Made by a program: the position numbers and the translations under genes
NCBI GenBank assembly: GCA_903877135.1
Contig: CAIRCN010000038.1
Location: forward strand, 124,001 to 188,000
Source: an uncultured Opitutia bacterium
GTDB taxonomy: Bacteria; Verrucomicrobiota; Verrucomicrobiia; Opitutales; Opitutaceae
Reading direction: 5' to 3'
DNA: 64,000 nucleotides
In this document: positions 25,382 to 40,375 of the stretch, one piece after another
How positions within the stretch are numbered: position 1 is the first letter of the stretch
Layout of the letters: each line of letters starts with the position of its first letter
The notes under the pieces: generated by a model
What the model was told of the DNA's origin: nothing
Database searches by the model: none
What the model saw: the letters and a program-made list of their open reading frames with translations, nothing else

Positions 25382-28240
25382 TCACGCCCTCGCCAACGCA
25401 CGCCAGCGTTTCAGCGCGGCACCGGTGAGCGAGCTCTCGCAGGCCTCGATCTCGATTCGCGGGCCGGCGTAGATGAGGTCGCCGCCGTCGCGTCCGCCGC
25501 CGGGGCCGAGGTCGATCAGCCAGTCGGCGAGGTTGATCACGTCAAGGTTGTGCTCGATCACGATCACGGTGTTGCCCTGGTCGCGGAGTTTGAAGAGCAG
25601 GTCCATCAGCTTCTGGATGTCCACCCAGTGCAGGCCGGTCGTGGGTTCGTCTAGGATGTAGAGTGTGCTGCCCTGCTGGCGCTTGCTGAGCTCGAGGGAG
25701 AGTTTGATGCGCTGCGCCTCGCCGCCGGAGAGCGTCGTGGCCGACTGCCCAAGCGTGAGGTAGCCGAGGCCGACGGCGTCGAGCGTCTGGAGCTTATCCA
25801 TCACGCGGGGGATGTTGCGAAACAGCTGGATCGCCTCGCGCACGGTGAGCGCGAGCACGTCGGCGATCGACTTCCCGTGGAAGAGGATTTCCAGCGTCTC
25901 GCGGTTGAAGCGCCGGCCGCCGCAACCCGGGCACGGCGCGTAGGCGTCGGCCATGAACTGCATGTCGAGCTTGATGACGCCGTCGCCCTGGCAGCGCTCG
26001 CAACGACCGCCGCGCACATTGAACGAGAAGCGGCTCGCCTTGTAGCCGCGCACTTTCGCCAGCGGCACCTGTGCGAACAGGTCGCGGAGCAAGTCGAGCA
26101 GCCCGACGTAGGTGGCGGGGTTGGAGCGCGGGCTGCGGCCGATCGGCTCCTGATCGACCTGCACGAGCTTTTCGAAGAAATCGAGATTCTCGAGGTGACA
26201 GTGTTTGCCGGGAATGGTTTTCGCGCCGTTGAGCTTGCGCGCGGCGGCGGCGGCGAGGACGTCGTTCACCAGAGTGCTCTTGCCCGAGCCGCTGACGCCG
26301 GTGACGACGGTGAGCAGGCCGACGGGAAATTTCGCGTCGATGCCGCGGAGGTTGTTCGCGCGCGCCTCGCGCACGGTGAGCCAGGCGCCGTCGGGCGCCT
26401 TCGTTTTCGCATCCTTCACGACGCCGAGTTTGCGCGCAAGATACGGCCCCGTGCGCGAGATTTTCGCGGAGAGCATCGCGCACTGTGCGGGGGTGCCTTG
26501 AAAAAGAATCTGCCCACCCTCGACTCCCGCCTCGGGGCCGAGTTCGACAATCTCGTCCGCAATTCGAATTGTATCCTCGTCATGCTCGACCACGAGCACG
26601 GTGTTCCCGTGGTCGCGCAGCGCGATGAGCGTGTCGAGGAGTTTTTGGTTGTCGTGCGGGTGCAGGCCGATACTCGGCTCGTCGAGCACGTAGATCACGC
26701 CCATCAGACCCATGCCGAGCTGGGTGGCGAGCCGCACGCGCTGGGCCTCACCGCCAGAGAGCGTCGCGTAATCGCGGTCGAGCGTCAGGTAGCCAAGTCC
26801 GGTCTCAAGCAGGAAATGCAGCCGCTGCTCGATGCCGGTGACGACGTCGCGCACGGCCTCGTTGGCGCAGTGCGCTGCAACTATCTCGCAGGCGAAGGCG
26901 TGGGCCGCCGCAATGTCGAGCGCCATAAAGTCGGGAAAACTTCTCCCGCTGAGCCGCACAGCGCTGCTGCGGGCGTTGAGGCGCGTGCCGTGGCATTCGG
27001 GGCATTCGCCCGCCACCATGTAGGTGGTGAGCCGCGCCTGGAAGCCCTCACTGGCCGTGTGACGCCAACTGCTGTCGAGGTCAGCGATCACGCCGGGAAA
27101 CGGCATCGCCTTCGCCTCGCGCATGCGCCGGAGCTTGAAAGCGAACTGCCGGTCGCCGGCACCGTGCAGGATGGCGTGACGCGTTTCCTCCGGCAGCATT
27201 TTCCACGGCACATCTGCGTCGAATGGCAATTGCTCGGCGAGCTGCTTGAGCTGGGCGTTATGCTTGATGATGAGATTTTTTCCGCCGATACGCCACGGCT
27301 TGATCGCGCCCTCGCGCACGCTCTTCTCCGGGTCAGGCACAACCAACTCGGGCACGAAGCGGAGCTTGCGGCCGAGACCGCCGCAGGTGGCGCACGCACC
27401 TTCGGTGTGGTTAAAGGAGAAATGCCGCGAAGTGAGTTTGTCAAAAACGTCGCCGCATACTTCGCAAGCCAGCGATTGGCTGAGCGCCATTTCGCGCCAT
27501 GGGGCCTCGGGCGATGCTTGCGCCAGCACGATCGTGCGGTCGCGACCCTCACGGAAGGCAAGCTCGAGCGAATCCGCCAGCCGGCTGCGCTGATCGACCG
27601 TGGCCACGAGGCGGTCCACGACGAGTTCGACAGCGATTTCCTTGGTGCCCGACGGCACGAGCTTCGAGTCGTCGAGGTTTTTGATTTCGCCGTCGAGCCG
27701 CACGCGCTGAAACCCGCGCTGCCGCAGGCGCGGCAGCTCGTCGCGCAGCACGCTGGGCTTGGCGCGCAGGCAGGGCGCCAGTAGCATCACGCGCTGGCCG
27801 GCACACGCGGTGAGCACGCGCTGGACATTGTCATCGAGCGAGCGCTGCACGACGCGACCGCCGTCCTTTGGGCAAAGTTGCTCGCCGCACAGCGCCCAGA
27901 GGAGCCGGGCGTAATCGGCGATTTCGGTGGCGGTGGCGATCGTGCTGCGCGGACCGCCCTGCCCCGTGCGTTGCTCGATGGCGAGGACCGGCGAGAGGCC
28001 GTGGATGAAATCGACATCCGGCCGCCTGAGCTGGTCGAGCACCTGCCGCACCTGCGTGGAGAGGCTCTCCATGTATTTCCGGTAGCCCTCGGCATAAATG
28101 GTATCGAACGCCAGCGACGACTTGCCGGAGCCGCTTGGCCCAGTGATGACGACAAGCTTCCCGCGCGGGAGACGCAGCTCAAGGTTCTTGAGGTTGTGCT
28201 CGCGTGCGCCTTTGACGTGAATATGGGTCGCAGCCTGCAT
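25382..28240 (-). CDS. uvrA: Excinuclease ABC subunit A
   Basis: A 952-residue damage-recognition ATPase of nucleotide excision repair. Two ABC modules are seen: Walker [10 protein letters not shown] near residue 34 and G-V-S-G-S-G-K-S-T in the second half; signatures L-S-G-G-E-A-Q-R-V and L-S-G-G-E-A-Q-R-I; Walker B with V-L-D-E-P-S and I-L-D-E-P-T. Zinc-binding pairs include [19 protein letters not shown] and [17 protein letters not shown] is diagnostic. The start at 28240 ([13 protein letters not shown]) gives the family N-terminus; the frame begins 15 bases earlier. uvrB and uvrC are not in the window. Divergent from the DUF1302 gene. Confidence 0.96.
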
Positions 28241-28459
28241 GGACGGAGCCCGCACCTTACGCGAATTGGCCTGAGGTCAAAGAGTGAACTGCAAATTTAT
28301 TCCCGCGGGAGGATGATCTGTTTTGCACAAAGTTCGTTCTTGAATCGCGCCGCGCAACGGCGTTTGTTCGCCCCTTAGCAACCCGCTCTGTTTGACCCCC
28401 AACCCCTCAACTGTCGCGCCAGTCGTCCTGCAAGGATTGCCGCGTTTTTCCTTACTACC

Positions 28460-30424
28460 ATGAAAGAAACCTCGTCATTCCGCGTCCTCACATGTCTAGG
28501 CCGAGCCACCCTGCTTGCCGGAATAAGCGCCGCCCTGCTTGTTCCAGCCCGTGCGGTTCAATTCAACTCCGGCGATCTCGCTGTGAGTTTCGACTCCACT
28601 TTCTCGTTTGGCGGCCTCTACCGGCTCCAAAACCCATCCCCGCAGTTCTACGGCACGACCAATTCGTTCATGGGCGTCCCGGGCCAGCAGAACTCGGTCA
28701 ACACAGACGATGGCAATCTGAACTACGGCAAGGGCTGGGCTTCCGAGCTCTTCAAGGGTTCGCACGATCTGGAACTGAAATATGGCAGTCTCGACTTGTT
28801 CGCCCGCGGCTATTATTTCACCGACAGTGAATCGAACTATACCCTCCGCACACAACTGACCGACGTGGCCAAGTATCGCGTCGTCAGGGGCGGCGAATTC
28901 CTCGACTTGTATGCCCGCTATTCGTTTAACCTTGGCGGGGATTTCCCGGTGGATGTGCGCATCGGCCGGCAGGTCTTGAGCATGGGTGAGAGCACGTTCC
29001 TCCCCAACGGCATCAATGTCATCAACCCCGTCGATCTCTCCAAACTCCGCATTCCTGGGGCCGAACTGAAAGAGGCGTTCCTCCCGGTCAACATGGTGAA
29101 ATTCTCTTTGGGCCTGACCCCAAACATCACCCTCGAGCCCTTCTGGCTGATGGAGTTCCGCTCCAACCGGCTCGAACCGGCCGGCACCTATTTCTCGACC
29201 AACGATTTCGCCAGCCCCGGCGGGCGCAACGTCTTCCTCGGCTTCGGCGCCTTGGCGGACAACGGCACTCTCGGCGCGATCCCGCGCGACGCTGATCGCA
29301 ACGGCCGCAATTTCAACCAATACGGCGCGGCACTGCACATTCAGGCCAAGACACTCAACGACACGGATTTTGGCATTTATTACGCACACTATAATAGCCG
29401 CTCCCCTGTCATCAGTTCCCGCACTCCCACCAACGCGATCAATCCGGATCTGACTGTCCCCCTCACGATTGCCCTCATGAAGGCCGGCTACGACGCCGCC
29501 ACGGCCTCCGCCACCGCCACCGGCATCTATCAACTCATCGTTTTGTCGAAGACCAATCCGGGCGCGATGACCCCCACCCAGATCGCCACCCTCCAAGCCC
29601 CTTCGACCCAAGCGGCCATCTCCGGGGCCAGTAGCATAGCGCTGCTGACTGCCGCTGCCACCGGACGCTACTTCATCGAGTATCCCTCGGGGATCAACAT
29701 GCTGGGCGCGAGCTTCAACACTTCCATCGGCAACACTGGCATCTCCTGGCAGGGCGAGGTCGCCTGCAAACAGAACCAGCCTCTGCAGATTGACGATGTC
29801 GAACTGCTCTTTGCCACCCTGTCGGCCCTTACCCCGACGTTTGGCGCTAACAATCAAGTCGGCAACTTTCTTGGCCAAATGAACACCGAGTTGCCCGGCT
29901 ACCGCCGGCACACGGTGTGGACTGGCCAAAGCACACTGACCAAGGTCTTCGGTCCGATGCTTGGCGCGCAGCAATTCACTTTGTTGGCCGAAGCAGGCGG
30001 GGTCTGGGCGAACCTTCCTTCAAAAGACACTCTCCGCTATGATGCTCCCGGCACCTTTACCGCCGGCAGTGCCTCCGAGATGATCAACACCGGTAATGGT
30101 GCATATGCTACCACTCCCATCGGCGCCTTTGCCGATAGTTTCTCGTGGGGCTATTCGGTGCTCGGCAAACTCGATTATAACAACGTGTTCGCCGGTGTAA
30201 ACATGTCTCCATCCCTCGCCTTCACCCACGACGTCACCGGCACCACACCGTTGCCGCTCGGCAACTATGTCAAAGGCCGCAAGAGCCTCAATCTCTCCGT
30301 CGAGTTCACGTTCCAAAACGCCTGGGCGCTGGAACTCCGCTACGTCGATTTCTTCGGCGGCGGCGTCTACAACCTGCTCGCCGACCGCGACTACTTCTCT
30401 ACGACCCTCAAATACTCCTTCTAA
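28460..30424 (+). CDS. DUF1302 outer-membrane beta-barrel protein
   Basis: A 654-residue exported protein. A signal peptide occupies about residues 1-32 (basic start, then L-L-A-G-I-S-A-A-L-L-V-P-A-R-A). The mature part has many alternating strands with aromatic residues and ends in Tyr-Ser-Phe, as outer-membrane barrels do. D-V-R-I-G-R-Q-V-L-S-M-G-E-S-T-F, N-V-I-N-P-V-D-L-S-K-L-R-I-P-G-A and L-K-E-A-F-L-P are the landmarks of DUF1302. It is the first of four consecutive genes (DUF1302, DUF1329, YCF48-like, RND) that commonly travel together in Proteobacteria and are thought to serve hydrophobic-compound traffic; that role is inference here. 204 bases separate it from uvrA and probably hold the promoter. 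Confidence 0.88.
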   Translation: MKETSSFRVLTCLGRATLLAGISAALLVPARAVQFNSGDLAVSFDSTFSFGGLYRLQNPSPQFYGTTNSFMGVPGQQNSVNTDDGNLNYGKGWASELFKGSHDLELKYGSLDLFARGYYFTDSESNYTLRTQLTDVAKYRVVRGGEFLDLYARYSFNLGGDFPVDVRIGRQVLSMGESTFLPNGINVINPVDLSKLRIPGAELKEAFLPVNMVKFSLGLTPNITLEPFWLMEFRSNRLEPAGTYFSTNDFASPGGRNVFLGFGALADNGTLGAIPRDADRNGRNFNQYGAALHIQAKTLNDTDFGIYYAHYNSRSPVISSRTPTNAINPDLTVPLTIALMKAGYDAATASATATGIYQLIVLSKTNPGAMTPTQIATLQAPSTQAAISGASSIALLTAAATGRYFIEYPSGINMLGASFNTSIGNTGISWQGEVACKQNQPLQIDDVELLFATLSALTPTFGANNQVGNFLGQMNTELPGYRRHTVWTGQSTLTKVFGPMLGAQQFTLLAEAGGVWANLPSKDTLRYDAPGTFTAGSASEMINTGNGAYATTPIGAFADSFSWGYSVLGKLDYNNVFAGVNMSPSLAFTHDVTGTTPLPLGNYVKGRKSLNLSVEFTFQNAWALELRYVDFFGGGVYNLLADRDYFSTTLKYSF

Positions 30425-30451
30425 ACCGAGCCAGCGTTTCCCACCCCTATC

Positions 30452-31801
30452 ATGAAAACGAAACTTCTTCTCTCGATTCTCTGCCTCGCTCCCCTCGCCT
30501 GCCTCCAGGCAGCCGTGAGCGAGAGCGAAGCGGCGCGCCTCGGCCAGGATCTCACGCCCCTCGGCGCTGAAAAGGCCGGCAACACCGCCGGCACCATCCC
30601 CGCGTGGGATGGCGGCATCACGACTCCGCCTGCCGGTTACACGGTCGGCATGCATCATCCCGACCCGTATGCGGGCGATGCGCCGCTCTACACCGTCACC
30701 GCCGCCAACCTCGCCGAACACCAGGCCCAGCTCACCGCCGGCACCGTCGCGCTGCTCAAGGCCTATGCCGACTACAAGCTCGTCGTCTATCCGACCCACC
30801 GCAGCGCCTCCAATCCCCAGCGCATCTACGACGCCACCAAGGCCCACGCCACCACCGCCCACCTAACCGAGGGCGGCAACGGCTTCGCGGGCGCCTTGGC
30901 TGGCATTCCGTTCCCCATCCCCCAGAACGGGCTTGAGGCGATCTGGAACCATCTCGCCCGCTACCGCGGCGTGGCCGCCGCGCGCCACATCGCGCAGGCC
31001 GCCCCGCAGGCCAACGGCAGCTACACCCTCGTGCAGTTCGAGGACGAGTTCCTCTTCAACTACGCCCGCCCCGACATGCAGGAGAAGGATCTCGACAACG
31101 TCCTCGTGTATTTCAAGCAGGCCGTCACTGCCCCGCCCCGCCTCGCCGGCACCATTTTGCTCGCGCACGAGACCATGGATCAGGTGAAGGAAAAACGCCG
31201 CGCTTGGGTCTATAACGCCGGCCGCCGCCGCGTCACCCGCGCCCCCGACGTCGCTTACGACAACCCCGGCACCGCCGCCGACGGCCAGCGCACCAGCGAC
31301 CAGTTCGATATGTTCAACGGCGCCCCCGACCGCTATTCGTGGAAGCTCGTCGGCAAAAAGGAAATGCTCGTGCCCTACAACTCCTACAAACTTCATAGCG
31401 ACAAGGTGAAATACGACGAAATCCTGAAGCCAAAGCACATCAACCAGGACCTCGCCCGCTACGAGCTGCACCGCGTCTGGGTCGTCGAGGCCGCCCTCAA
31501 GCCCGGCACCAGCCACATCTATTCCCGCCGCACCTTCTACCTCGACGAGGATAGCTGGCAAGTGCTCGCGGTCGATCAATACGACGGCCGCGGCCAGCTC
31601 TGGCGCGTCTCCGAGGCACACTGCATCAACTACTACGATGCCCTCACCTTCTGGAGCACGCTCGAGGTGCACACCGACCTGCAGGACGGCCGTTATCTGG
31701 CCATCGGTCTCGACAATGAGAACGCGATGTATGATTTCGCCATCAAACGCACCATCGCCGACTTCACTCCCGACTCGCTGCGCCGTTCCGGCGTGCGCTG
31801 A
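30452..31801 (+). CDS. DUF1329 periplasmic protein
   Basis: A 449-residue exported protein with a typical signal peptide (M-K-T-K-L-L-L-S-I-L-C-L-A-P-L-A-C-L-Q-A, a possible lipobox-like Cys is present but not in canonical context). The mature start E-A-A-R-L-G-Q-D-L-T-P-L-G-A-E and the core A-G-N-x-x-G-T-I-P-A-W-D-G-G are diagnostic for DUF1329; E-D-S-W-Q-V-L-A-V-D-Q-Y-D and L-W-R-V-S-E appear near the C-terminus. DUF1329 has been compared with LolA/LolB-like lipid-binding folds; that is family knowledge from memory. It begins 27 bases after the DUF1302 stop and is almost certainly in the same transcript. Proposed role: periplasmic lipid or hydrophobe carrier. Confidence 0.9.
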   Translation: MKTKLLLSILCLAPLACLQAAVSESEAARLGQDLTPLGAEKAGNTAGTIPAWDGGITTPPAGYTVGMHHPDPYAGDAPLYTVTAANLAEHQAQLTAGTVALLKAYADYKLVVYPTHRSASNPQRIYDATKAHATTAHLTEGGNGFAGALAGIPFPIPQNGLEAIWNHLARYRGVAAARHIAQAAPQANGSYTLVQFEDEFLFNYARPDMQEKDLDNVLVYFKQAVTAPPRLAGTILLAHETMDQVKEKRRAWVYNAGRRRVTRAPDVAYDNPGTAADGQRTSDQFDMFNGAPDRYSWKLVGKKEMLVPYNSYKLHSDKVKYDEILKPKHINQDLARYELHRVWVVEAALKPGTSHIYSRRTFYLDEDSWQVLAVDQYDGRGQLWRVSEAHCINYYDALTFWSTLEVHTDLQDGRYLAIGLDNENAMYDFAIKRTIADFTPDSLRRSGVR

Positions 31802-31845
31802 ATTCCCGAAAAATTAGTTCCCGTCAGCCCCGCCGCCTTCGCCTG

Positions 31846-32763
31846 ATGCGTCGCTACCGCTGGTTACTCGGTGCGTTGGCGGCGTTGGCACTGGTGTGCC
31901 CCACCAGTGCCGGCACCGTCGCGGCAAATGTGCTCCTGCTCGACGGCGCCCTCGCCGGCAACGTCGTCGTCGCCGTCGGCGAGCACGGCACCATCCTCCG
32001 CTCCGCCGACTCCGGCCGCTCGTGGCAGATCGCGAACTCCACGGTCGATGCCACGTTGACCGGCGTCAGTTTCGCCGCCGACGCCAGCCATGGCTGGGCC
32101 GTCGGCCACGACGCCCTCATTCTGGCGACCAACGACGCCGGCCTCACTTGGCGCAAATCCTGGCAGGGCGACAACCTCGAGCAGTCGTTGCTCGACGTCT
32201 GCGCGCTCGACGCCCGCCACGTCATCGCGGTCGGCGCCTATGGGCTCTGCCTTGAGACCACCGACGGCGGCGCCAACTGGACCGTGCGCAAGCTCCTTCG
32301 CGACGACATGCACCTCAACCGCATCAGTCGTGGTCCCGGAGGCGCGCTCTATCTCGCCGGCGAACGCGGCACGCTGTTGCACTCCACCGATGATGGACAG
32401 ACCTGGTCCCCACTCCACGCCCCCTACGAAGGTTCCTTCTACGGCCTCCTCGCGCTCGACGCCCACACGCTCCTCGCCCACGGCCTCCGCGGCCGCCTCT
32501 ATCGCTCCACCGACGACGGCGCCACCTGGACGATGGTCGCCGTGCCCCAGCCGATGCTGCTCGCCACCGCCGTAAAACTCTCCGGCGGCGCAATTGTCTT
32601 CGCCGGCCAGTCCCGCGGCCTCTTCCTCAGCCACGACAGCGGCCTCACGGTCGCCCCGTGGCCTGCCTCGCTCACGAGCGCGGTCTCCGAGCTGGTCCAG
32701 GCCCCCGACGGCAACGTCATCGCCCTCGGCGAAGCGGGCGCCACCCTTCTCCCGCAGCCCTGA
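31846..32763 (+). CDS. Exported YCF48/BNR-type beta-propeller
   Basis: A 305-residue exported protein. A signal peptide (R-R-Y-R-W-L-L-G-A-L-A-A-L-A-L) is followed by about six propeller blades, each with an S-x-D-x-G-x-x-W or T-x-D-G-G-x-x-W turn: S-A-D-S-G-R-S-W, T-N-D-A-G-L-T-W, T-T-D-G-G-A-N-W, S-T-D-D-G-Q-T-W, S-T-D-D-G-A-T-W. This is the BNR/Asp-box pattern of YCF48-like photosystem II assembly factors. In DUF1302-DUF1329 loci a protein of this type normally lies just before an RND transporter gene, as here. It follows DUF1329 by 44 bases and precedes the RND gene by 8 bases. It may be an assembly or adaptor factor for the complex. Confidence 0.88.
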   Translation: MRRYRWLLGALAALALVCPTSAGTVAANVLLLDGALAGNVVVAVGEHGTILRSADSGRSWQIANSTVDATLTGVSFAADASHGWAVGHDALILATNDAGLTWRKSWQGDNLEQSLLDVCALDARHVIAVGAYGLCLETTDGGANWTVRKLLRDDMHLNRISRGPGGALYLAGERGTLLHSTDDGQTWSPLHAPYEGSFYGLLALDAHTLLAHGLRGRLYRSTDDGATWTMVAVPQPMLLATAVKLSGGAIVFAGQSRGLFLSHDSGLTVAPWPASLTSAVSELVQAPDGNVIALGEAGATLLPQP

Positions 32764-32771
32764 AGCGCCCC

Positions 32772-35105
32772 ATGCTCGATCGATTCACCAACTGGATGTT
32801 CCGCCATCGCGCGCTGCTCGTCGGCGGCATGGCGGCCGTCACCCTCGTGATGGCGTGGTTCGCCTTCCACCTGCGCGTCGATGCCAGCTTCAACAAGTCC
32901 CTCCCGCTCGACCACCCCTATATCCGCACCTTCACCAAGTATCAGAGCGAATTTGGCGGCGCCAACCGCGTCATCGTCGCCCTCATGGCCAAACAGGGCG
33001 ACATCTTCACCCCGGAGTTCTTCCACGAGCTGAAGTCCGTCACCGATGAGGTCACCTTCCTCCCCGCCGTCGAGCGCGCCCAGGTCCAGTCGCTCTTCAC
33101 CCCCAACGTCCGCTACATCGAGGTCGTCGAGGACGGATTTTCCGGCGGCAACGTGATGCCCGCCGACTTCGCACCCACCCCCGCCAGTTTCGCCAAGGTG
33201 CGCGAGAACATCATCAAGTCCGGCAAGCTCGGCCAGCTCGTCGCCAACGATTTCACCGGAGCCATCGTCAGCGCGCAGCTGATCGAGATCGACCCGCGCA
33301 CCAACCAGAAAATCGACTACGCCAAGGTCGCCGCGGGCCTCGAGGCCATCCGCCACCGCGTCGAGCACGACACCCATGGCCGCATCGAGGTCCGCATCAT
33401 CGGTTTCGCGAAGGTCATCGGCGACATCTCCGACGGCGCCCGCAACGTTCTGCTCCTCTTCGGAGTATCGATTGTCGTCACCATCATCCTCGTCTGGAAC
33501 TACGCCGGCCGCTGGAAACTCGCCCTCTCGCCCGTGCTCTGCTCGCTCGTGGCGGTGATCTGGCAACTCGGCGGCCTCACCGCCCTCGGCTACGGCATCG
33601 ATCCGTTTTCGATTCTGGTGCCTTTTCTGGTCTTCGCCATTGGCGTCAGTCACGGCGTCCAGAAAATCTGCACCTTCCGCAACGAAATGTTTCAGGGCCG
33701 CGACGGTCCGGCAGCCGCCAAGGCCGCGTTCAACCAACTCATCGCCCCCGGCGCCGTCGCGCTCGCCGCCGACGTCGTCGGCTTCCTCACCATCCTCGTC
33801 ATCAAGATCGAGGTCATCCAAGAACTCGCCATCGTCGCCAGCTTCGGCGTCAGCGTCATCGCCATCACCAACTTCTTCCTCCTCCCGCTCCTCCTCTCCT
33901 ACCTCCATCTCCCGCCCACCTACGCCCAGTGGGTCGCGAAGCGCCGGGCGCAGGGGGATATCCTCTGGAATCGGCTCGCACGCGGCATGCGGCCGGTCCC
34001 CTCACTCATTGTCATCGCCGTCGGCCTCGCCCTCGGCGCCTGGGGCGTTTATAAGTCAGGCCAGATCCATATCGGCGACACCCAGGCCGGCGTCCCCGAA
34101 CTCCGCCCCGGTTCCCGCTACAATGAGGACACCCGCGTCATCACCCAGAAATTCAGCATCGGCGTGGACATCCTGTCCGTTCTCGTCGAGACACCGCCCA
34201 ACGGCTGCGTGGACTACGCCGTCGTATCGCTGATGGACCGCTTCGAGCACCAGATGCGCACCCTGCCCGGCGTGCAGTCGGTCATTTCCCTCCCCTCCGT
34301 CGCCAAGGTCATCAATTCCGGCTACAGCGAAGGCTCCCTCAAGTGGCGCATCCTCCCGCGCAACCCCCAGGCGCTAGCGCAAGCCGTGTCGCCGATCGAG
34401 ACTGCGACCGGCCTCCTCAACAACGACGCCAGCGTCATGCCCGTGATGATCTTCCTTACCGACCACAAAGCCGAGACGCTCCTCGCCGTGACCGACGCCG
34501 TCAAAACCTTCGCCGCCGCGCACCCGTCGCCCAAACTGAAGTTTCTCCTCGCCAGCGGCAACGCCGGGGTGATGGCCGCGACCAACGAGGTCGTTCATGC
34601 CGCCGAGCGGCCGATCCTCTATTGGGTGTTCGGCGCCGTCATTGCGCTCTGCCTCGTCACCTTCCGCTCCATCCGCGCCACCCTCTGCATCGTCATCCCG
34701 CTCGTAATCGTCAGTTACCTCGCCTATGCTCTCATGGTCTTCCTCGGCATCGGCTTAAAAACCTCCACGCTCCCCGTCGTCGCCCTCGGCGTCGGCATCG
34801 GTGTGGACTATGGCATCTACCTCTTCGCCCGCCTGCACGCCGCGCTCAGGGCCGGCCAATATTTCGAGGACGCAATGTTCACCGCGCTGCGCGACGCCGG
34901 CGCGGCGGTCGTGTTCACCGGACTGACGCTCGCCATCGGCGTGAGCACCTGGATCTTTTCGAGCCTGAAATTCCAGGCCGACATGGGCCTGCTGCTCACC
35001 TTCATGTTTTTAGTGAACATGATCGGCGCCATCGTCCTCCTCCCCGCGATGGCCCGTTGGTTCTGGCGTCATCATAAGGGCACCGAGAGCACACCTGCGC
35101 AGTAG
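32772..35105 (+). CDS. RND/MMPL superfamily exporter
   Basis: A 777-residue membrane transporter with the two-fold symmetric RND plan: TM1 at residues about 12-33, a soluble loop to about 205, a bundle of five TM segments to about 385, TM7 near 410, a second soluble loop, and five TM segments at the C-terminus. It is the short MMPL/HpnN-like form rather than the 1,000-residue AcrB form. Patterns such as F-A-I-G-V-S-H-G-V-Q-K and G-V-G-I-G-V-D-Y-G-I-Y lie in the helices that carry the proton relay in the family. The ATG at 32772 is 8 bases after the YCF48-like stop, so the four genes form one operon. Such pumps move lipids, hopanoids or other hydrophobic molecules; the substrate here is unknown. 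Confidence 0.9.
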   Translation: MLDRFTNWMFRHRALLVGGMAAVTLVMAWFAFHLRVDASFNKSLPLDHPYIRTFTKYQSEFGGANRVIVALMAKQGDIFTPEFFHELKSVTDEVTFLPAVERAQVQSLFTPNVRYIEVVEDGFSGGNVMPADFAPTPASFAKVRENIIKSGKLGQLVANDFTGAIVSAQLIEIDPRTNQKIDYAKVAAGLEAIRHRVEHDTHGRIEVRIIGFAKVIGDISDGARNVLLLFGVSIVVTIILVWNYAGRWKLALSPVLCSLVAVIWQLGGLTALGYGIDPFSILVPFLVFAIGVSHGVQKICTFRNEMFQGRDGPAAAKAAFNQLIAPGAVALAADVVGFLTILVIKIEVIQELAIVASFGVSVIAITNFFLLPLLLSYLHLPPTYAQWVAKRRAQGDILWNRLARGMRPVPSLIVIAVGLALGAWGVYKSGQIHIGDTQAGVPELRPGSRYNEDTRVITQKFSIGVDILSVLVETPPNGCVDYAVVSLMDRFEHQMRTLPGVQSVISLPSVAKVINSGYSEGSLKWRILPRNPQALAQAVSPIETATGLLNNDASVMPVMIFLTDHKAETLLAVTDAVKTFAAAHPSPKLKFLLASGNAGVMAATNEVVHAAERPILYWVFGAVIALCLVTFRSIRATLCIVIPLVIVSYLAYALMVFLGIGLKTSTLPVVALGVGIGVDYGIYLFARLHAALRAGQYFEDAMFTALRDAGAAVVFTGLTLAIGVSTWIFSSLKFQADMGLLLTFMFLVNMIGAIVLLPAMARWFWRHHKGTESTPAQ

Positions 35106-35123: not shown

Positions 35124-35954
35124 CTATTGCACAGACTTTCCGGCGCGAGCCTGGCGCTGCGCTTCCTGCCACGGGAAAATCCGCGGCACCGGCCGAACCT
35201 TCTCCGGCAGACTCGCCGAAGCGATATAGGCCCGGCGATAGTCGTCGGAAATATTCGGGGGCGTGTAGTGGAAGGTGCGGCTGTAGTGGAACGTCGCACC
35301 GCCAGGTGGCAGTTCGCACGCCACTGCCGCGCTGAGATCGGCGACACCGGGCGCGATTTCGAGGCCCGGGATGCGCGGATCATTGCCAATGGGCTGATGC
35401 GCGACGACCTCCAGTTCGTGCGAGCCAGGCACAAAATACATGCACCCGTTTTGTTTGGTCGCCGGCTGCAGCGGAATCCAGACGCTGAGGGCGTGGTATT
35501 CCCGGGCCGGGTTCCAATACGCCTCGTCCTGATGCCACGGCGTCGCCGGACTTTCGTGCGGCGGTTTGTTGATGGCGTGATCGCCAGTCATGTAAGCCTC
35601 GTCGCCAAGCAACTGGCGCGCCATGCCCTTGATGTTGGCCACCATCTGCGTGAGCAGCAACTCGGGTGCATATTTCGAAGGTGTGAGAATCTGCGGCAGC
35701 TTGGCTGATTTTTCCACTCCGCCGGTGCCGGCCAAGTCATAGGTGTCGCTCGCTGCCCTCCAACTGCGCTCGGCGAAAAGCTGATCGTATATCCCGCGCA
35801 CCCGCGCCACCTCGGCTGGCGACATGATGGCGTCGATCGCAAGGTAACCGTTGGTCTTGAAAAAAATCACCTGCTCCGCCGTTAGGCGGCGGTCGGGGGC
35901 GAGCAAACTGGGCGCAGCATAGTCGGGAAGCTTCGGGGAGGTGGCGGCATTCAT
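35124..35954 (-). CDS. Phytanoyl-CoA dioxygenase (PhyH) family protein
   Basis: A 276-residue Fe(II)/2-oxoglutarate oxygenase. Iron ligands are His141-x-Asp143 (P-W-H-Q-D-E) and His229 (F-H-Y-T-P-P-N), with Arg240 as the likely 2-oxoglutarate ligand. The core M-Y-F-V-P-G-S-H is typical. It shares little with the PhyH gene at 7387. The ATG at 35954 follows the family start T-A-E-Q-V-I-F-F-K-T-N-G-Y; upstream in-frame ATGs would lengthen it without homology. It is divergent from an AraC-type regulator, with 106 bases between starts, so that regulator may control it. The gene is convergent with the RND gene, with 18 bases between stops. Substrate unknown. Confidence 0.9.
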   Translation of the reverse strand: MNAATSPKLPDYAAPSLLAPDRRLTAEQVIFFKTNGYLAIDAIMSPAEVARVRGIYDQLFAERSWRAASDTYDLAGTGGVEKSAKLPQILTPSKYAPELLLTQMVANIKGMARQLLGDEAYMTGDHAINKPPHESPATPWHQDEAYWNPAREYHALSVWIPLQPATKQNGCMYFVPGSHELEVVAHQPIGNDPRIPGLEIAPGVADLSAAVACELPPGGATFHYSRTFHYTPPNISDDYRRAYIASASLPEKVRPVPRIFPWQEAQRQARAGKSVQ

Positions 35955-36060
35955 CGCTCGACACCATACCGCACCCAGCGAAACGTGGCGTCCGACAATG
36001 TCGCGCAGCACAAAATCGAACATCGCCAGGCCAACACCGATCGCCCCTGCCTCGCATATC

Positions 36061-36927
36061 ATGGCGCCTGAGCAGTTGGCCCGGCGCTTCGAGTGCTTCG
36101 AGCGGGAGATCGGCATTCCCGGAGTTGCTGAGCTCGGTCGCTACCGCTATGCCTCCGCCTACGAGGGTCTGCGGCTGAGCGCACATCCCGATGGACTAGA
36201 GATTTGTTTTCTCGCCCGTGGGCGGCAGACCTACCGGGTCAGCGGCGGCACCTACCGCCTGCGCGGCGGGGACCAATACCTCGTGTTTCCCGGTGAGCCG
36301 CACGACTCGGCGGGCATGCCCGAGGAAAAGGGAGTGCTGTATTGGCTGGTGCTCCGGCTCAAACCCACCCGGCAGCCGATGCTGTTTCTCGACGCCAAAA
36401 TCTCGCGCAAACTCAAACGCGCTCTGCTCGCCATGCCCTCGCGGCATTTCGCCGCCGAGCCCGGCACACAGGAGCTGCTTGAGGAAATCATCGCCTCGGT
36501 GGCGGAAAGCTGTGCGGAACTCGGCCGGCTGGCGACTGCCGCGCTGGTGCTGCGTTATTTGTTTTCCACCCTACGGGCTTCGCAGCACAACCTCCGCGCC
36601 GCACCTTCCGCCCGCATCCAGCACTGTCTCGCGCACATCGAGGCCCGCCTCGCCGAGCCACATCCTGTGCCGCAACTGGCCCGACTGGTGCAGCTCTCGC
36701 CATCGCGCTTCAAGGTCCGGTTCCGCGAGGAAACGGGCTTGCCGCCCCGTGAATACGTGCTGCGCCAGAAAATCTCCGCCGCGCAAGGAGCCCTGCGGCG
36801 TCCGGGAGCCACAATCACCGAAGTGGCCCACGCACTTGGTTTTTCCAGTTCGCAGTATTTTGCGACCGTATTCCGGCGCTTCACTGGCGCCTCGCCGTCG
36901 CAGCACCGGGCGACACACGCAGAGTGA
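36061..36927 (+). CDS. AraC-family transcriptional regulator
   Basis: A 288-residue regulator. The N-terminal cupin-like part (L-E-I-C-F-L-A-R-G-R-Q-T-Y-R-V, then G-G-D-Q-Y-L-V-F-P-G-E-P-H) is the usual effector-binding domain; the C-terminal 100 residues hold two helix-turn-helix units, seen in L-A-R-L-V-Q-L-S-P-S-R-F-K-V-R-F-R-E and I-T-E-V-A-H-A-L-G-F-S-S-S-Q-Y-F-A-T-V-F-R-R-F-T-G (each part a known landmark). It probably binds the 106-base region shared with the divergent PhyH gene and acts on a sugar or small-molecule signal. The ATG at 36061 was chosen; one at 35998 is in frame. Confidence 0.88.
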   Translation: MAPEQLARRFECFEREIGIPGVAELGRYRYASAYEGLRLSAHPDGLEICFLARGRQTYRVSGGTYRLRGGDQYLVFPGEPHDSAGMPEEKGVLYWLVLRLKPTRQPMLFLDAKISRKLKRALLAMPSRHFAAEPGTQELLEEIIASVAESCAELGRLATAALVLRYLFSTLRASQHNLRAAPSARIQHCLAHIEARLAEPHPVPQLARLVQLSPSRFKVRFREETGLPPREYVLRQKISAAQGALRRPGATITEVAHALGFSSSQYFATVFRRFTGASPSQHRATHAE

Positions 36928-36946: not shown

Positions 36947-37369
36947 CTATTTGCGGTGCTCGAAAGCGACGACTTTCCCGCCCCTGAACATCACCCGCAT
37001 GTGTTCGTGCACCCGATAGGCAGGAGTGCTTAGATAATACGGAGAATAGGCATCGCGCCAGTAATGGTGATAGGCGCCCGTGTAGAGGATCGCACCGTCG
37101 GAATTTTCGTAGGTGACGTAATTCCAAATCTCTGTCGTGCCTGTGGCGTCCGTGCGCTCAACCACCCGATCGGGTTCTCCTAGTGCAAGGCGGACCATGA
37201 CCTTGTCGAAGCCGATTCCCACCTTGCCTTCGCGAACCAATGCCTGCTGTTCCGGCGCGAGCCGGGTAAAAAGTTCCTGATTTGCCCCGATGCGCGCCTC
37301 TGGACTCGCGCAACCGCCGATCAGTGCCAATCCGCCAAGCAGGGCGAGAATCTTGAGTGTCGTATTCAT
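36947..37369 (-). CDS. Lipoprotein, paralogue of 39956-40375
   Basis: A 140-residue lipoprotein. The signal peptide ends in the lipobox L-I-G-G-C, and the mature part starts C-A-S-P-E-A-R-I-G-A-N. It has a short conserved core (G-F-D-K-V-M-V-R-L-A-L-G-E-P-D, then G-T-T-E-I-W-N-Y) that also appears in the protein at 39956-40375. This core recalls the small SmpA/OmlA-type lipoproteins (G-x-P-x-x-V with a W-x-Y), but the rest differs. It is convergent with the AraC gene and divergent from the HAD gene. It probably sits in the inner leaflet of the outer membrane; its job is unknown. Confidence 0.78.
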   Translation of the reverse strand: MNTTLKILALLGGLALIGGCASPEARIGANQELFTRLAPEQQALVREGKVGIGFDKVMVRLALGEPDRVVERTDATGTTEIWNYVTYENSDGAILYTGAYHHYWRDAYSPYYLSTPAYRVHEHMRVMFRGGKVVAFEHRK

Positions 37370-39955: not shown

Positions 39956-40375
39956 TCACTTCCTCCGCCGCTCAACCGCCGATACCCGGCCGTCGGTGAA
40001 AATCACGAGCAGCATCTCCTCGCCGCGAAACCCGTCGTCGCTTACCGCCACAGCGCTGTCATAGGCCGATGCGCCCCGCGTCATACCCACTCCCACACCT
40101 AGCGCAAAACGTAGCCCACGATCCGCATACGTCCAAACTTCCGTCGTGCCCTCCGCGGTCGTGCGCATCCGCTTGCCGTCCGGCCAGCCGATCGCCACCA
40201 GCACCATTTCCTCCGTAAAACCCAGGTCTATTTGGCCGGCCCGGATCTTTTGCTGCACGCCCGCCGGCCAGGAATTGAAGGCTGCAGCGTTGCCCTGAAT
40301 GCGCGACTCGGGTGAGCTGCAGCCCACGGCCAGCAGCAACAGCAACAGCGCGAGACCGGTTCGGATGGTTTTCAT
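39956..40375 (-). CDS. Lipoprotein, paralogue of 36947-37369
   Basis: A 139-residue lipoprotein with a signal peptide (K-T-I-R-T-G-L-A-L-L-L-L-L-L-A-V-G) and Cys after V-G, followed by C-S-S-P-E-S-R-I-Q-G-N. The core G-F-T-E-E-M-V-L-V-A-I-G-W-P-D and G-T-T-E-V-W-T-Y matches the lipoprotein 2.6 kb upstream in both order and spacing, so the two are paralogues. The central part is unlike it: a Gly-rich hydrophobic stretch (F-A-L-G-V-G-V-G-M-T-R-G) replaces the Tyr-rich stretch. It is convergent with the TPR gene and divergent from rpiB. Function unknown. Confidence 0.78.
   Translation of the reverse strand: MKTIRTGLALLLLLLAVGCSSPESRIQGNAAAFNSWPAGVQQKIRAGQIDLGFTEEMVLVAIGWPDGKRMRTTAEGTTEVWTYADRGLRFALGVGVGMTRGASAYDSAVAVSDDGFRGEEMLLVIFTDGRVSAVERRRK

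Follow-up and report, generated by a model that had tools for sequence, protein, structure and literature searches.

The window, the whole 64,000-nucleotide stretch of DNA analysed here, carries a cassette of four plus-strand genes, called A to D, next to a divergent uvrA gene. The locus contains the following features.

25382-28255, minus strand: uvrA, divergent neighbour and landmark of the site, outside the transporter (NF001503, 1172.3 bits; cut-off 1147).
28256-28459, strand not applicable: intergenic region between uvrA and gene A, presumed promoter of the cassette (from ORF positions).
28460-30424, plus strand: gene A, DUF1302 outer-membrane beta-barrel, 654 aa (PF06980, E 1.7e-147).
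30452-31801, plus strand: gene B, DUF1329 periplasmic protein, 449 aa (PF07044, E 4.5e-159).
31846-32763, plus strand: gene C, YCF48/BNR propeller-type protein, 305 aa (PF14870, PSII_BNR, E 5.9e-26).
32772-35105, plus strand: gene D, MMPL/HAE3-type RND inner-membrane transporter, 777 aa (PF03176, E 1.8e-29).
35124-36116, minus strand: PhyH-type dioxygenase, convergent with gene D and 18 bases away from it.
35941-36924, plus strand: AraC regulator, beyond the PhyH gene and downstream of the cassette.

The family assignment of the four genes is near certain. The A–B, B–C and C–D gaps between the window's ORFs are 27, 44 and 8 bases, values that depend on starting gene D at ATG 32772 and not at the GTG further upstream, 32658, that the mechanical ORF list gives. 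The row of four families and these gaps had been given in a preliminary description, and both are borne out by the ORFs and Pfam matches. The arrangement is of the AmeABCD type: neighbouring DUF1302, DUF1329, YCF48 and RND genes that share this order and one orientation. Inspection and simple hydropathy reveal signal-like N-terminal segments on A, B and C, and hydrophobic stretches of the RND kind in D. No terminator-like sites lie within the three gaps by a scan whose overall yield does not exceed that from shuffled sequence; the four genes are presumably co-transcribed. A conserved structured leader before gene A was considered and dropped; a hairpin occurs in several relatives, with a mean z of -0.92 over 29 sequences and 0.28 for the window.

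The PhyH dioxygenase and the AraC regulator were also rejected as parts of the module, as neither gave a tblastn match above 60 bits in 37 relative loci with flanks of a few kilobases, among them that of the same-genus genome G398, which retains uvrA and all four cassette genes (70-88% identity); copies of the two may lie elsewhere in those genomes. Five other neighbours in the window likewise gave no match above 60 bits in these loci. In 10 loci of the Opitutaceae clade (two of which, L049 and L061, are one contig), D is followed by a gene from one and the same cluster; it is absent from the window and was not accepted as a fifth operon gene. The sole copy tested, L060:13760-14947, is an AI-2E-family transporter, and this gene is possibly a fifth member in part of the family. 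Further along the window, 36947-37369 and 39956-40375, both on the minus strand and about 2.6 kb apart, encode small lipoprotein-like proteins (140 and 139 aa) that begin alike and have a TTE-W-Y motif in common; the former has no Pfam match.

Gene A matches PF06980 with 493.1 bits against a cut-off of 23.2. Its structural model, built from a 35-row alignment with a mean pLDDT of 89.4, has 18 barrel strands by our own count and long loops all on one side; the side that these loops would face was read from strand parity. One modelled loop, between strands 9 and 10, is partly helical and 91 residues long, and its length varies from 20 to 113 aa over the 35 rows and from 91 to 100 in six Opitutaceae-clade rows. 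OpdK and other Occ/OprD channels head the structural matches (Z 23.4, rmsd 3.4, 316 residues), followed by AlgE (Z 21.7), and gene A is thus predicted to fold as an OprD/AlgE-like barrel. It has no match to the FadL family PF03349 at E values up to 1, and FadL is absent from the 50 structural rows listed, a result with which a FadL fold would still be compatible.

Gene B matches PF07044 with 530.1 bits (cut-off 23.1) and LolA_like at E 2.9e-8. VIA-align superposes residues 156-447 of its AlphaFold2 model (36-row alignment, mean pLDDT 88.8) on LolA3 (9tp6; Z 20.2, rmsd 2.7, 233 residues); 4z48, a DUF1329 structure, is matched with Z 18.7, and LolA proper less closely, with Z about 7-9. The model therefore predicts a LolA fold for residues 156-447, preceded by an extra N-terminal region. 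The occurrence of LolA2/LolB2 in a flexirubin locus (PMC11885536) is possibly a parallel for LolA-type carriers of small hydrophobes.

Gene C finds Ycf48 structures by phmmer with a best E of 1.5e-19, and scores 88 bits against the cut-off of 326 of NF010237, the equivalog for the Ycf48 photosystem II assembly factor; it is a relative only. Gene D passes the gathering cut-off of PF03176 (103.2 versus 20.5 bits) and matches MmpL4/5 and HpnN structures by sequence search. As it reaches only 176.7 of the 351.9 bits required by the HAE3 model TIGR00921, gene D is related to the HAE3 family without being certified by that model. All 93 aligned RND proteins (drawn from 95, with two short ones excluded and one contig counted twice) share the residues S293, H294, Q297, D679 and Y680. 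S293 and H294 align with an Asp and a Phe of HpnN, and D679-Y680 with an Asp-Tyr pair of MmpL5. We take the Ser-His residues to lie in TM4 and the Asp-Tyr residues in TM10, where they presumably participate in the proton relay of RND proteins.

A DUF1329 search of 387 Verrucomicrobiota genomes found matches at E <= 0.001 in 41, of which 24 were strong (E < 1e-100); 22 of the strong genomes belong to the window's family, the Opitutaceae, and the two outside it are G119, of the same taxonomic order, and G294. Among a sample of 150 genomes from the family, 85 had a DUF1329 match and 78 a strong one. The seven weak genomes were not counted as carriers, and the 78 carriers are defined by DUF1329 alone, the other three genes being checked in fetched loci. 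The order A-B-C-D was found in all 24 loci taken from 23 whole Verrucomicrobiota genomes, the window's own excluded. A divergent uvrA precedes the cassette in 21 of these 24, the exceptions being G294, G119 and a second copy in G010, so that 21 of the 22 family loci have the same uvrA' A B C D arrangement as the window. Accordingly, the adjacency that the preliminary description had proposed to check in relatives is conserved, and the cassette is no oddity of a single verrucomicrobial genome. Two individual loci show damaged genes: gene D is split across two frames in one genome (L037), and gene A has an interrupted reading frame in L033, where the other three genes are present.

Beyond the phylum, a scan of named genomes gave at least 590 stretches encoding a relative of gene B, and the best 80 were analysed. 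A-B-C-D is present in 64 of these 80; the other 16 comprise nine A-B, four A-B-C, two B-C-D and one B locus, several at contig ends. Eight of the nine A-B loci come from Marinobacter or Pseudomonas, and one lies at a contig end. One contig is present both in the whole-genome set (L049) and in the named set (L061). Because A-B-C-D is kept in 24 of 24 Verrucomicrobiota and 64 of 80 named loci, the arrangement is not due to chance. The uvrA' A B C D arrangement recurs in 7 of the best 80 named loci. Median gaps were 19, 120 and 11 bases over 90 loci, after exclusion of 3 of 93 (mixed strand, broken gene A, and hits from two copies). Five loci are on plasmids: three have A-B-C-D, one has A-B only, and in one, L056 from an Indioceanicola plasmid, C and D are encoded about 5 kb away from A-B on the opposite strand.

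Several other loci have individual features. L098 has the order A B C D A B, with the second A-B pair on the same strand; L130, labelled Flavobacterium sp., has a proteobacterial-like DUF1329 gene with no A, C or D and may be mis-binned; and six marine-type gammaproteobacterial loci (L086, L088, L099, L106, L109 and L111) have an open frame of 1,611-1,621 aa downstream of D.

A quick tree of gene D was built from 69 of the 95 proteins and contains cassette relatives other than AmeD. The 29 Opitutales rows (27 of the Opitutaceae clade plus L053 and L070) fall in one group with a support of 100, within which the 27 Opitutaceae-clade rows group with a support of 93. The outside neighbours are Desulfobacterota, Acidobacteriota, Nitrospirota and Proteobacteria, in a weakly resolved order. 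The grouping of the Opitutales rows, together with the site adjoining uvrA, suggests a single old gain of the cassette, which would later have been lost in about half of the family. The gene D of G294 groups with a proteobacterial row and not with Opitutales; as this assembly is fragmented, a separate gain or contamination is possible.

Some copies have neighbours that point to a cargo. Downstream of the second G010 copy, on the same strand, are genes for an acyl-CoA ligase, a FadB-like protein, a thiolase, ETF-alpha, a cysteine-rich (CCG) protein and an acyl-CoA dehydrogenase, and these beta-oxidation genes point to a fatty-acyl-like cargo. Similarly, an acyl-CoA ligase and a FadB-like gene lie behind D in the deltaproteobacterial locus L072, and an acyl-CoA ligase follows D in L114. 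In L131, an A-B-only Pseudomonas locus, a ligase and a LuxR-type regulator are nearby, and a lipase-type gene lies ahead of A in L076 and L124. Other neighbours tested had no such connection, for example a peptidase in L088 or the asparagine synthase of L075. The statement that no catabolic genes are attached to the cassette thus holds at the window's copy and not for relatives such as L072 and the second copy of G010.

Co-occurrence was scored in the 150 family genomes with thresholds of E < 1e-15 for acyl-CoA dehydrogenase and E < 1e-20 for 3HCDH. The window's own genome has two strong acyl-CoA dehydrogenase matches and three 3HCDH matches, one of them seen to be strong. The cassette and acyl-CoA dehydrogenase occur together in 35 genomes, with 43 having the cassette only, 14 the enzyme only and 58 neither (p 0.001); the corresponding numbers for 3HCDH are 44, 34, 19 and 53 (p 0.0003). 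Of the 44 genomes with both markers, 33 carry the cassette (odds ratio 4.07, p 0.0003). Shuffling within genera revealed no excess, 1563 of 5000 shuffles reaching the observed cassette/marker count, and since these shuffles remove the co-occurrence it may reflect shared ancestry. The tie is significant family-wide but not within genera, and was set aside as a principal argument and retained as weak support. Furthermore, even at E 0.001 an acyl-CoA dehydrogenase match is missing from 33 of the 78 carriers, and 23 of the 78 lack both this and a strong 3HCDH match, a count in which some absences may be misses, as 3HCDH was scored among at most 21 candidates per genome; G088, G091, G271 and G393 are single-contig genomes among the 23. 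One 3HCDH_N match, at G018:C1:2856213-2856737, lies inside a giant open frame of 13,706 aa.

Experimental work on related systems comes from other phyla. AmeABCD of Castellaniella defragrans 65Phen was tested as a monoterpene exporter: deletion of ameABCD lowered monoterpene tolerance and slightly raised Nile Red accumulation in de-energised cells, and the wild type and the ame mutant hardly differed in real-time Nile Red efflux (PMC6394551). In Pseudomonas putida, PP_0765, PP_0766, PP_2018 and PP_2019 are required for growth on Tween 20 (PMC10866462). Disruption of the YCF48 gene phnL (Delcs14_1758) in Delftia reduced vesicles, growth on phenanthrene and nanopod length, and lowered extracellular protein by 96% (PMC3958437); the proteins listed for nanopods include DUF1302 and DUF1329 members (PMC3110197). 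A statement that deletion of the Delftia DUF1329 gene DelCs14_1722 impairs growth on phenanthrene (PMC13101534) was not relied on, as the main text of the cited PMC3958437 contains neither 'DUF1329' nor '1722' and names phnL. Predicted aromatic regulons contain the four families, which has been interpreted as a means of coping with toxic aromatics and with solvent stress, and one such predicted regulon, in a Burkholderia, also includes a phytanoyl-CoA dioxygenase (PMC6449761). DUF1302 and DUF1329 genes have also been placed within a phenol-hydroxylase cluster, and were of lower abundance in one growth-mode comparison (PMC7012976 and PMC7603352). The preliminary description was right about a proteobacterial precedent for the gene order, AmeABCD having the same parts in the same order, and about hydrophobe transport as the likely role; its view that the role elsewhere is mostly inferred is contradicted by the AmeABCD deletion and Nile Red assays and the P. 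putida Tween 20 fitness data. A literature search, with most subscription journals outside it, found no publication joining Opitutaceae with DUF1329, no mention of Verrucomicrobiota in the papers listed for the group and no transport data on a verrucomicrobial copy.

The present analysis establishes the gene content, order, conservation and site of the cassette and the predicted folds of A and B, and the cassette is a conserved example of a transporter kind already known from Proteobacteria. In our judgement it is likely to be a hydrophobe transporter. For the window's organism we infer substrate, direction and mechanism, and the reading that we favour, with some reserve, is proton-driven, probably outward transport of fatty-acid-like hydrophobes with a LolA-type carrier. 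The proton-driven RND protein D would pick up a molecule from the inner membrane or periplasm, the LolA-fold carrier B would shield it during the periplasmic crossing, and the barrel A would let it through or into the outer membrane, while the propeller C would hold or assemble D and B. In Opitutaceae, the old locus beside uvrA would most likely provide a net outward flow that clears free fatty acids and other membrane-active hydrophobes, and copies beside beta-oxidation genes would have been recruited for growth on fatty-acid-like compounds. Outward transport is favoured because AmeABCD combines the same families and order with an export-type deletion phenotype, and a fatty-acyl cargo because of the ligase and FadB-like neighbours in G010 and L072, the ligase in L114 and L131, and the Tween 20 requirement. 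The cassette genomes without either beta-oxidation marker argue for a role beyond catabolic uptake. Counted against this reading are the HAE3 cut-off that gene D misses, the unchanged real-time Nile Red efflux (PMC6394551), and the P. putida and Delftia phenotypes, which fit uptake equally well as export.

The main rival is an uptake system that substitutes for FadL, in which A would admit long-chain fatty acids or similar compounds, B would carry them inward and D would load them by proton force into the inner membrane for an acyl-CoA ligase; we regard this as possible, if on balance doubtful. It draws on the beta-oxidation genes beside the second G010 copy and in L072, on the Tween 20 requirement in P. 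putida (PMC10866462), on the resemblance of gene A to OprD/Occ channels and on the genomes with both markers, of which 20 of 44 have the cassette without FadL (7 have FadL only, 13 both and 4 neither). FadL itself gave no match in the window's genome. However, the cassette and FadL do not exclude one another across the 150 genomes (31 both, 47 cassette only, 30 FadL only, 42 neither; odds ratio 0.92, p 0.87), and the AmeABCD data favour export (PMC6394551). Carriers lacking both markers also speak against uptake, though acids could enter phospholipid directly. The phnL phenotype and the nanopod location of DUF1302 and DUF1329 proteins (PMC3958437, PMC3110197) would agree with a device that remodels the outer membrane, the cassette driving vesicle formation on hydrophobes and transporting no defined molecule. 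This appears improbable, as the phnL mutation sits in a gene cluster and may affect the downstream RND gene, the mutant still makes some vesicles and short nanopods (PMC3958437), and failed lipid transport could also alter vesiculation.

The cassette might instead export an endogenous isoprenoid (hopanoid, sterol or carotenoid) across the envelope, like HpnN or BstA. Gene D is related to HpnN (TIGR03480, 89.3 bits), and the two strong squalene-hopene cyclase matches in the family sample, G415 and G422, are both in cassette carriers, but gene D falls far below the cut-offs for HpnN (NF052374, 41.8 versus 1100 bits) and for the sterol transporter BstA (NF045600, 24.6 versus 1400 bits). The window's genome, which is 97.29% complete, gave no match to squalene/phytoene synthase, an enzyme present in 11 of the 150 family genomes, 7 of them among the 78 carriers; 5 of 150 genomes have a cyclase match above the cut-off, and that of the window's genome lies below it (19.4 versus 26.1 bits). 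A cargo of this kind is thus unlikely in the window's genome, where the suggested hopanoid or steroid link fails, and we consider the explanation as a whole very improbable.

A more speculative reading, to which we give little weight, is that the Opitutaceae cassette is a housekeeping lipid line and not a pollutant pump. It would cycle free fatty acids between the two membranes of hosts that need not degrade these acids, with D as a motor whose relay is one-sided: Ser-His in TM4 would stand opposite Asp-Tyr in TM10, where HpnN instead has an Asp at the TM4 position. DUF1302 and DUF1329 are still filed in Pfam under function unknown. New here are the verrucomicrobial lineage, the uvrA site, the carriers without beta-oxidation markers and the invariant Ser-His/Asp-Tyr pattern. 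Copies within catabolic islands cannot part the transporter from catabolism; family carriers without the markers make the two separable, so that cargo and direction can be tested, and the invariant residues provide a defined mutation set for probing the motor.

Among known systems, the window resembles in gene families and order, the basis of the comparison rather than the AmeA-D sequences, AmeABCD, which has the same four families in the same order, an RND protein of HAE3 type and a cassette stated to be conserved in its lineage (PMC6394551). AmeABCD is monoterpene-inducible and lies in a catabolic island, whereas the window's cassette lies beside uvrA with no catabolic genes attached. In the P. 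putida system, four proteins share one Tween 20 phenotype and the DUF1329 protein is predicted to touch both the barrel and the RND protein (PMC10866462); by locus tags its genes form two loci (PP_0765/PP_0766 and PP_2018/PP_2019) compared with one here, and the Pseudomonas and Marinobacter loci analysed among the best 80 (8 loci) have A-B only. DelCs14_1756, 1757 and 1758 of Delftia acidovorans Cs1-4 are DUF1302, DUF1329 and YCF48 genes, as are genes A-C, in a system tied, unlike the window, to phenanthrene use, nanopods and vesicles (PMC3110197, PMC3958437). The 'Nanopod' cluster of ORM2a, a benzene-degrading member of the Desulfobacterota, resembles the window in its porin-like, DUF1329, YCF48 and MMPL genes and differs in two extra genes between DUF1329 and YCF48 and in its link to benzene; it is expressed in benzene degraders, and its authors predict a transmembrane complex (PMC13101534). 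HpnN (PDB 5khn) has the RND fold in common with gene D, with similarity detectable in the first half, and has its own Asp in place of Ser293; it is described as needing no barrel or periplasmic partner (PMC6394551), whereas gene D has neighbours of both kinds. Finally, the LolA family has the same predicted fold as residues 156-447 of gene B, which differs in its length of 449 aa, its extra N-terminal region and the RND gene encoded nearby.
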